Source of the DNA: Bacteroidales bacterium
GTDB taxonomy: Bacteria > Bacteroidota > Bacteroidia > Bacteroidales > UBA3824
Direction of reading: 5' to 3'
DNA: 64,000 nt
NCBI GenBank assembly: GCA_016286055.1
Contig: JAEERW010000001.1
Coordinates: 450,189 to 514,188, forward strand
Position numbers and translations under genes: made by a program. Below are positions 33,816-36,574 of this stretch, piece by piece (within the stretch, counting starts at the first letter, position 1; every line of letters starts with the position of its first letter). Under the pieces are notes generated by a model that worked only from the letters and a program-made list of their open reading frames with translations, had not been told where the DNA came from and ran no database searches.

Positions 33816-35372
33816 TTATTCAATCACCTCCATCTCCACCTCGTGCTTGGATGTCGCCTTGTTGTAGTTGATGCCGCAGAGGATGATTTGTTTTGAAAAT
33901 CCTTTGAGACTTTTGGGATATTCTTTGCGTTTGATTTGGCTGATGGCGGTGTCGGCAGTCTTGTCGTATTTTAGTTCCACAACTATGGCAGGGCGTGGAG
34001 AGTTTGGCAGGGGAATGAAAACCATATCGGCAAAGCCTTTGCCTGTGGGCAGTTCGTGGAATATGTTGTAAAACGGTTTGGCGGCGTAGTATGCCAAGAT
34101 TATGGCGCAGCGCATTGAGTTTTCGTCGTTAAATTCCAAAAGCGATGACGCCTCAAAATGATAGTTGTCGAATGCGCGGGCTACCTTATCCTTGCGTAGG
34201 TTGATGGTGTCGTCCAAAAGTTGGAGCGAGGAGTTTACAGCCTTTGATAGTTCGCCCCATCCTGCCACGCTTACGGCGTTTTCAAACTCTTCGGAAACCT
34301 CAGTGTTTGGAATGGTTACGCACCGTGTGTCAGGATTGTACGACAGGTAGCCGAGGTGTACGAGAAGGGTAAGCACGTCGTCGCACGTGTCGATATTCTT
34401 CATATCGTTGCGGAAACTCGACACCCTCACTGTGGGGGACTCGCCGTTCATCATTCCTATAATCTTTGTCCTTACGTTGTCAGCATCCGTTTGCAGGTAG
34501 GTCTCGATTGCCATAAACGATGCAGTCTTCGACCAAAAACTATTGTAACTGCGTTTTAATATTGACTGCATAACCGAGAAGGGATTGAACATAGATTTTT
34601 CGCTGCCGATGATGTATCCGTCGTAGGCGTGCTTCATCAGTTCAAAGTCCATATTGTTTTCTTCACAGAGTTTTTTTACCTCTTGTTCGGTAAATCCATA
34701 ATATTTCGCCGTGTTGCCGGGGTCTACAACGCTGTATTCCACAAAGTTGTTCAACGCCGACTGTGTCTTTATCTTGATTATGGGCAGGATGCCGGTCATA
34801 TAAACTAATAGAAAAATCTTTTTGGCGTTGTTCGACTTGAACATTGCACGCAGAAAGTTGACATACTCGTCTTGTACGTCTTGATCCACATCTCGCACGA
34901 GCATATCCCACTCGTCGATGATGAGGATAAAGCGGTCGCCGGTCCTTTGGTTGATTTCTTCAAGCGCATTGCTGAGGCTCTCCTTTTCTTCCAAAAAGTC
35001 ATACGACTCTTTCAAATCTTTAACGAATCGTCTTTGTGCAACTTTGAGTATCTCATTTTTTGGAATGTCGGCAAACCTGTTCCAATCTATAAATATAGTT
35101 GGATATTTGTTGAGGTGAATTTTATATTCGGGACTCTTGGTGATTTCCAAGCCGTCGAAGAGTTTTGAGGAATCACACGAGCGGTCGTAGTAGGCATACG
35201 CCATCTGCGCCGCAACCGATTTGCCAAACCTGCGCGGGCGTGATATGCAAATAAAGCGGTTGTCGGTGTCCATATTTTTGTTGAGTATGTTCAACAGACC
35301 CGATTTGTCAATGAAATTGCTGTTCTTGACGCTTCTGAAATCGCTGTTGCCGTAATCTATAAACTGACTCAT
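33816..35372 (-). CDS. AAA-ATPase-like protein with C-terminal PD-(D/E)XK nuclease fold
   Basis: 518 residues from MSQFIDYGNSDFRSV. The frame is open to 35420, but a consensus promoter covers 35390-35421, so the ATG at 35372 is chosen. Walker A RPRRFGKS (45-52), Walker B FILIIDEWD, and a C-terminal FADMVFIPLP..AIVVELKYDK nuclease-type motif. Same family as the 27795-29369 gene but clearly diverged. It lies between the oxidoreductase and the actin-like gene, all on the minus strand. Confidence 0.85.
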   Translation of the reverse strand: MSQFIDYGNSDFRSVKNSNFIDKSGLLNILNKNMDTDNRFICISRPRRFGKSVAAQMAYAYYDRSCDSSKLFDGLEITKSPEYKIHLNKYPTIFIDWNRFADIPKNEILKVAQRRFVKDLKESYDFLEEKESLSNALEEINQRTGDRFILIIDEWDMLVRDVDQDVQDEYVNFLRAMFKSNNAKKIFLLVYMTGILPIIKIKTQSALNNFVEYSVVDPGNTAKYYGFTEQEVKKLCEENNMDFELMKHAYDGYIIGSEKSMFNPFSVMQSILKRSYNSFWSKTASFMAIETYLQTDADNVRTKIIGMMNGESPTVRVSSFRNDMKNIDTCDDVLTLLVHLGYLSYNPDTRCVTIPNTEVSEEFENAVSVAGWGELSKAVNSSLQLLDDTINLRKDKVARAFDNYHFEASSLLEFNDENSMRCAIILAYYAAKPFYNIFHELPTGKGFADMVFIPLPNSPRPAIVVELKYDKTADTAISQIKRKEYPKSLKGFSKQIILCGINYNKATSKHEVEMEVIE

Positions 35373-35389
35373 AGTGCTTGTATTTTCCG

Positions 35390-35421
35390 CAAATATAGCG
35401 ATTAAATTGGATATTACCAAA
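35390..35421 (-). promoter_or_regulatory. Promoter of the second AAA/nuclease gene
   Basis: On the minus strand: TTTG (35421-35418), a 20-nt spacer and TATATTTG (35397-35390). It fixes the start at 35372. Confidence 0.7.
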
Positions 35422-35524: not shown

Positions 35525-36574
35525 TTATTTGAAACGGAGGTTGCCCGATTCGATGTTGACATCTTCGTATTGGGTGATAACGGTGTTTGAGTTGCCTATA
35601 TCGATGCCCACTGCGGTGTTGATGTCGCCGCCGTTTACGTGTGCAGAGTGTAAGCAATAGCCTACCGATGTGAGTGTCAATGGGTTGGGAACTACTTCGA
35701 TGTTCAAAATGCCTTCAAATTCTTTGTAGAAGTTTTCTACCAATTCCATATAGAGTGCGCCGCCACCTGTGATGTACATTTGCGAAGCCTTGGTAAAGTC
35801 GGCGTCGGTAAACACACGGCGAAGGTTTGGCGAAATCACATCGCGGTAATACATATTGAGCACATTGCGGCGGATGTCGAGAATGTCGATTTTTTTGCGG
35901 TCGAGCATTATAAAGTTGTTCATAAACGCCTGCTCAATCTGTTTCATATTTTTGAGACCGAGGTTGTATTGCAAGCCGAGTTCTTTGGTAAAGAGGTCGA
36001 TGGCGTATTGCAAGCCCTGAATGCTGATTGCAGTACGCTGAACAATACCGTTTTCGGTGCTGAGTACGGCTTCGCAAGTGCCAAATCCGAGACTTATTAC
36101 AAAGAAATTGCCTGTGGCTTTGATGTCGCCCTGACGAAGAGCCACAATGTTGCCCATCATTTCGGGGAGAATTTCTACCGAAACCACGTCTACGTTCATC
36201 TCTGTGCGGCCTTTGCTTGTAAACGACGACATATCAAACTCAATGCGGTGGGTTTTGCGGAGAAGTTCGGCAGCCGGAGTTTTGTTTACCTGATAGGTGC
36301 TGAACGGAAATCCTGTTGTTACCACCAACGGACGGTTGTTTTTGTAGGCGGCAAGCAAAAGGGCTGTTTTGAAAAGGATTTGGTAGTCGATTTCGGTGGG
36401 AGCGGCGTTGATGGTGCGGTGCGGCGACTGTCCTTCCGACAATGCAAGGTTGCCTACGATATATGGAATATCGTCGATGTATAGCCTCAGACCGTTGATG
36501 AGGTCGTTTGAGACCAAGGCAAGGTTCGAGTTGTTGTGCTCGAATACGCTCGGTATGCTGTAACTGTTTCTCAT
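35525..36574 (-). CDS. Actin/ParM-like ATPase, apparently circularly permuted
   Basis: 349 residues. All actin-fold motifs are present but rotated. The protein opens with the segment that normally follows the first hairpin (SIPSVFEHN, 6-14; YIVGNLAL, 38-45), then VVTTGFPFSTYQ (84-95), the phosphate-2 strand VISLGFGTCEAV (159-170), and the adenosine motif YITGGGALY (267-275). The phosphate-1 motif AVGIDIGNSNTVIT (321-334), expected at the N-terminus, is at the very C-terminus. An in-frame stop upstream of the ATG excludes a missed N-terminal motif. The phosphate-2 aspartate is replaced (SLGFGT), so hydrolysis may be altered. Single gene with a terminator; partner unknown. Confidence 0.78.
   Translation of the reverse strand: MRNSYSIPSVFEHNNSNLALVSNDLINGLRLYIDDIPYIVGNLALSEGQSPHRTINAAPTEIDYQILFKTALLLAAYKNNRPLVVTTGFPFSTYQVNKTPAAELLRKTHRIEFDMSSFTSKGRTEMNVDVVSVEILPEMMGNIVALRQGDIKATGNFFVISLGFGTCEAVLSTENGIVQRTAISIQGLQYAIDLFTKELGLQYNLGLKNMKQIEQAFMNNFIMLDRKKIDILDIRRNVLNMYYRDVISPNLRRVFTDADFTKASQMYITGGGALYMELVENFYKEFEGILNIEVVPNPLTLTSVGYCLHSAHVNGGDINTAVGIDIGNSNTVITQYEDVNIESGNLRFK

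Follow-up and report, generated by a model that had tools for sequence, protein, structure and literature searches.

The window analyzed here, a stretch of 64,000 nucleotides from a Bacteroidales bacterium, encodes a 349-residue actin-like protein belonging to a family that is, with near certainty, circularly permuted. The chain appears to open at what is canonically the third strand and to close with the phosphate-1 hairpin, canonically the first element, and the actin fold is restored because both chain ends meet in one beta-sheet, as indicated by sequence profiles and supported by structural models. The family is actin-like by fold and motifs but lacks the defining motif order. The explanation that we consider probable, without regarding it as settled, is a naturally permuted, chromosomal actin-like filament protein working with bactofilin, in which both the polymers and the partnership are inferred. 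The permuted actin of this gut bacterium, together with the bactofilin linkage of the family, gives a hint of a bacterial cytoskeleton of a new kind.

Table 1. Position of the permuted actin-like gene and of its motifs in the window, with the basis for each assignment.
Feature	Position	Strand	Basis
Circularly permuted actin-like protein, 349 aa	35525..36574 (stop codon included)	-	ORF list, family searches, AlphaFold2, rotation tests
Phosphate-1 hairpin, residues 321-334, AVGIDIGNSNTVIT, C-terminal not N-terminal	35573..35614	-	Conservation, model strands, profile alignment
N-terminal strand(s), residues 2-13; canonically the segment after the phosphate-1 hairpin	36536..36571	-	Models, invariant P8, S9, E12
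Phosphate-2 segment, residues 157-168, FFVISLGFGTCE; canonical Asp is Ser161 here	36071..36106	-	Alignment, n=45
Adenosine-motif region, residues 270-274 (GGGAL)	35753..35767	-	G270 and G271 in 45/45
Disordered C-terminal tail, residues 339-349	35528..35560	-	pLDDT <50 for 339-349 (AlphaFold2)

The open reading frame starts with ATG within a stop-to-stop frame of 360 residues, leaving 11 codons upstream. The sequence-only reading had placed a phosphate-1 motif close to the C-terminus and had invoked an in-frame upstream stop against a second copy. Both observations were confirmed: AVGIDIGNSNTVIT ends 15 residues short of the C-terminus, and a hidden N-terminal motif could be ruled out because only 11 codons separate the stop from the ATG. 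We take SLGFGT (residues 161-166) to be the phosphate-2 motif and GGGA (residues 270-273; GGGAL with the following residue) to be the adenosine motif. The permuted actins depart from the canonical order of phosphate-1, phosphate-2 and adenosine motifs from the N-terminus, and rotation restores it. The gene is a single copy in its genome, on contig C24 (531,987 bases), and the same genome carries a separate, ordinary MreB with a full-length PF06723 match on contig C22. In the window, a radical-SAM methylthiotransferase-type gene (PF00919, PF04055) precedes the permuted actin on the same strand, with about 80 bases between them; the relatives L078 and L079 do not share this arrangement. Just downstream lies a predicted AAA-ATPase with a PD-(D/E)XK nuclease-like domain (33816-35420, minus strand; PF09820, PF08011), which is not a recurrent neighbor among the permuted-actin regions.

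Rotation was evaluated with sequence profiles. The Pfam model ALP_N (PF17989) matched the native window protein with 53.5 bits over model positions 18-148 (curated cut-off 26.3), the rotated protein with 58.9 bits from model position 1, and the rotated protein minus the disordered tail and the first three residues with 65.4 bits over positions 1-148. A canonical reference profile was made from four plasmid actins (L130-L133; 325-349 residues, motif N-terminal), and the native family profile aligned with it in two pieces, residues 1-320 on canonical positions 18-341 (score 118.8) and residues 319-339 on canonical positions 1-21 (score 23.7). Moving residues 319-338 to the front raised the score from 118.8 to 143.0 in a single piece, so that joining the C-terminus to the N-terminus does restore a ParM-like order, as had been claimed. 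The comparison of native and rotated forms, proposed earlier as a check, clearly favored the rotated form: none of 30 other segments placed in front scored above 124.6, the highest of 20 column-shuffled hairpins gave 124.9, and a control without the hairpin gave 119.6. Among 14 cut points tried, the best fell after residue 318 (143.0); cuts at 300-322 scored 138.8-141.7 and the remaining ones no more than 125.2. When members were compared singly with the canonical profile by HMM, 44 of 45 gained from rotation (mean 2.6 bits), L062 being the sole member without a gain. Furthermore, ALP_N gave 12 matches in 11 of 296 genomes of the phylum, all beginning at model position 16-21; all 12 are known permuted copies, and hence no canonical ALP_N protein was present in that sample. 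Permuted actins are easily missed in annotation because sequence tools see a truncated ALP_N domain.

Structure prediction for the window protein with AlphaFold2 and a 45-row alignment gave a pLDDT of 91.2 and a pTM of 0.90, with model strands at residues 321-326 and 330-336 (the C-terminal hairpin) and at residues 2-8 (the N-terminus). When the chain was cut after residue 318, removing residues 319-349, strand 2-8 was lost from the model and the mean pLDDT of the first three ten-residue blocks fell from 91, 89 and 92 to 79, 59 and 66. Changes elsewhere were smaller, residues 111-120 falling from 92 to 69 and residues 41-50 from 88 to 68. This result is as predicted for a sheet joining the N-terminal strand to the C-terminal hairpin; it is not proof, and the exact place of the hairpin is inferred from the models. 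The top PDB matches by Foldseek were Ta0583, pCBH ParM, Dh-cParM1 and CorM, which are actin-like filament proteins, and by AlphaFold2 confidence and these matches the protein qualifies as having an actin-like two-domain fold. A fold search of BFVD returned ordinary phage actin-like and Hsp70 proteins. In phmmer searches against the PDB no actin was found, only two netrin matches with E >2, and for the window protein nothing in NCBIfam exceeded any cut-off.

The window protein resembles the plasmid ParM/StbA-type family ALP_N in its significant match (53.5 against 26.3 bits), its fold and its motifs, but ALP_N members open with phosphate-1 and the window protein closes with it. Unlike ALP_N, the window protein is chromosomal and its phosphate-2 Asp is replaced, and its family has bactofilin neighbors. 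The best Foldseek match, the archaeal actin homologue Ta0583 (PDB 2fsj; E 1.5e-15, TM 0.68/0.74), itself a chromosomal actin-like protein, differs in not being permuted and shares 15% identity. High Foldseek matches were also obtained for pCBH ParM (6izr, 6ixw), Dh-cParM1 (8x1i) and CorM (9rmi); the PDB entry titles name pCBH ParM and CorM as filament formers, and the 8x1i title says ParM only. We assume these three to be in canonical motif order. Pfam matches to MreB and MreB-like models were weak (MreB_Mbl in 17 and MreB-like_C in 36 of 45 members, E 0.01), the window protein scoring 14.2 bits against MreB_Mbl, below the curated cut-off of 27; as a shape-type cytoskeleton, MreB offers a functional analogy to the permuted actin. 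Bactofilin (PF04519) is unlike the permuted actin in fold and is a proposed partner only. On plasmid NZ_CP022992.1 (H9), PRTRC system protein D was matched by a permuted actin of family f154 (24% identity, E 2e-6) and is possibly a canonical relative.

The actin fold is among the most thoroughly studied of all protein folds, and to our knowledge no natural permutant of it has been described before. The sequence-only reading had likewise known of no described permuted bacterial actin, and a literature search found neither a permuted actin nor this family, within a limited scope that left out most subscription journals and part of PMC7203096. The whole text of PMC7203096 contains 'circularly permuted' once and 'ParM' 22 times, all in the part left out of the search, the remainder giving no hit, and the passages searched in PMC12667903 make no mention of actin. 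New with respect to the earlier observation are the bactofilin linkage and the extent of the family. If the family holds, it would show that the phosphate-binding elements need not come in one fixed order, and the permutants would constitute a natural experiment on which chain connections the ATPase and filament cycle need. The bactofilin linkage furthermore provides a testable tie between nucleotide-driven and nucleotide-free bacterial cytoskeletons.

Distribution of the family is patchy across many Bacteroidota genera. A match was present in 18 of 98 related genomes, 13 of these being among the 18 genomes of the same genus, the window's own included. Within the order, an 11-member profile matched 22 of 393 genomes, and across the phylum it matched 24 of 395. 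A 45-row profile matched 24 of 195 genomes from a different class of the phylum and, in the window's own class, 4 of 295; the samples of order, phylum and classes overlap. With the window protein alone as query, 12 loci were recovered, near relatives only and about 77-100% identical. All genome samples were Bacteroidota, and outside this phylum only plasmid, phage and viral collections were searched. Two weak tblastn-level relatives among the 18 related genomes with a match, in G026 and G037, were dropped, as the family profile did not recover them.

Listing homologues, another check suggested at the outset, yielded a family with the same rotated order throughout. The motif lay near the C-terminus in all 42 loci read (38 and 4), in homologues down to about 40% identity, and C-terminal phosphate-1 was also present in seven full-length extra members and three more; the contig-end fragments L075, L156 and L157 were left out of this judgement. 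Across 45 aligned proteins, 39-88% identical to the window protein, residues G323, D325, G327, N328 and T331 were identical in every member and P8, S9 and E12 were invariant. An N-terminal phosphate-1 motif is excluded in these 45 members because the 6-8 residues preceding P8 are too few. A dN/dS of 0.027 between the window gene and that of G015 indicated strong purifying selection, other pairs with the window gene being saturated at silent sites. The tail after T331 comprised 6-23 residues in 44 of the 45 members and 130 in one, L035 (genome G183), whose tail is rich in His, Lys and Glu and differs from those of close relatives. Low-complexity C-terminal tails of about 100 residues were observed in three copies of family f218 (L165, L166 and L167, from G975, G1097 and G944), ending in a similar short stretch, KFLKTGMW or KFLISGTW, that might serve for targeting or for binding a partner. 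The fetched regions of these three copies contained no bactofilin.

The absence of the phosphate-2 Asp, remarked earlier from the SLGFGT stretch, was confirmed and proved to be a family trait, with Ser at residue 161 in 41 of 45 members, Gly in 3 others and Asn in the remaining one. In actin and ParM this Asp orders magnesium and its water. Glu138, Glu168 and Asp325 were present in all 45 members, Glu138 aligning with the Q of the canonical LPQPMG stretch, as were G270 and G271; the phosphate-2 loop is present though its Asp is replaced in all. Each of the three copies of genome G386 (L090, L091 and L092) has Ala at position 272, within the GGG motif. ATP binding is very likely, although inferred without binding data, and the nucleotide would be held via the phosphate-1 Asp325, the phosphate-2 loop and the GGG motif. 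Hydrolysis should be altered: given the family-wide replacement of the phosphate-2 Asp beside invariant Glu138 and Glu168, it probably proceeds slowly or with a different arrangement; slowness is an inference made without hydrolysis data, and the loss could alternatively mean a dead ATPase.

Gene neighborhoods pointed to a possible partner. By HMM, 31 of 61 regions, from 13 of 23 families, had a bactofilin near the permuted actin, in no case on the opposite strand (20 of 41 regions and 10 of 19 families in the first set, 11 of 20 regions in the further set). Regions extended up to 17 kb, several being cut by contig ends, and represent at most 60 permuted actin copies, since a single gene split between two contigs accounts for both L178 and L179. 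Across the 41 regions and 19 families, bactofilin was the only neighbor cluster, the actin itself apart, to occur in more than four families; the next commonest, an ABC transporter, occurred in four. All five bactofilin neighbors tested scored above the Pfam PF04519 cut-off. A total of 57 bactofilin matches in 33 genomes (about 1.7 per genome, with at least one in 32 of 33) corresponds to about 0.007 expected per 17-kb region, and the binomial probability of linkage in 10 of 19 families is near 3e-17 when families are treated as independent, an assumption that holds only in part. In a 55-protein tree, with 29 proteins labelled for bactofilin, the label required 6 changes against 18.6 in shuffles, indicating that the linkage is old and has been lost or gained several times. 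It was absent in 30 of 61 regions, including all 6 from the window's genus, and the sole bactofilin match of the window's genome lies on contig C27, a different contig from that of the permuted actin. Each of the three copies in G386 forms a cassette of small bactofilin, permuted actin and larger bactofilin, and in G552, G600 and G809, which have two permuted actins each, every copy has its own bactofilin. A partnership is thus a likely inference for the family as a whole; for the window's species, where it is inferred through homologues only, the chances are even. In three f135 genomes (L101, L102 and L097), a gene of about 380 residues lies between permuted actin and bactofilin on the same strand; it contains TPR repeats by Pfam in L101, the sole one tested, the other two look alike, and it is possibly a third component.

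Taken as a filament protein, the permuted actin would polymerize as other actin-like proteins do, which we infer with reasonable but limited confidence in the absence of polymer data. Slow hydrolysis would favor long-lived filaments or a nucleotide switch over fast dynamic instability. From the recurrent same-strand linkage we infer that a bactofilin scaffold may underlie or anchor the filament, and the pair may act as a two-component cytoskeleton of the chromosomal kind, with a role in shape, polarity or positioning and not in plasmid partition. A broader proposal, advanced only tentatively, is that undescribed permuted actins form such two-component cytoskeletons with bactofilins phylum-wide. 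On this proposal, permutation gives the chain a new free C-terminus immediately following the phosphate-1 hairpin, through which a bound partner or the length of the tail could influence the nucleotide site. Without the phosphate-2 Asp, filaments would be stable, or bactofilin would take over their control from intrinsic hydrolysis.

The same evidence might be accommodated by a non-polymerizing, ATP-dependent switch or regulator, e.g. an adaptor controlling bactofilin assembly, which we regard as possible but rather unlikely. Bactofilins polymerize without nucleotide, the phosphate-2 Asp is lost in every aligned member, and the variable tails, above all the three long f218 tails with their similar end motif, look suited to partner binding or targeting. 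Against such a switch, the nearest folds are filament formers and the domain is conserved over its full length.

We consider it improbable that the gene belongs to an integrated plasmid or other mobile element and encodes a ParM-like protein for DNA segregation that happens to be permuted. Such a role would agree with the patchy distribution, with ALP_N as the closest curated family and with canonical tblastn matches that are plasmid ParM/StbA-type proteins. However, no permuted member was found in 72,556 plasmid records (two queries), in 50,697 phage records or in viral contigs, nor was there a PHROGs match, and a phage or plasmid origin was rejected on these grounds. The gene lies on a 532 kb contig, and no small adaptor is recurrent among the neighbors, though no specific search for ParR or parC was made; a plasmid segregation role is unlikely.

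Very little supports the view that the C-terminal GxDxGN stretch is a chance or unrelated sequence in a degenerate actin without phosphate-1. Its one support is the converse profile test, which was weak and mixed: the rotated family HMM scored higher by 0.1-2.0 bits for three of the four single canonical actins and 1.0 bit lower for the fourth. Set against these small gains, the motif is invariant in all 45 members and aligns with the first 21 positions of canonical actins, none of the 50 sham segments gave a comparable gain, and the C-terminal hairpin is needed for strand 2-8 in the model. That a normal actin was distorted by misassembly, a frameshift or a wrong start codon is conceivable in that the data come partly from metagenome-assembled genomes and that one relative, in G047, is broken by stops. 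It was rejected as practically impossible given the upstream in-frame stop, the purifying selection and the fact that dozens of independent contigs, some from near-complete genomes of 1-3 contigs, show the identical order. In G047, a genome otherwise near-complete, the permuted actin (L017 and L020) is interrupted by a stop and a frame change and is either a pseudogene or an assembly error.
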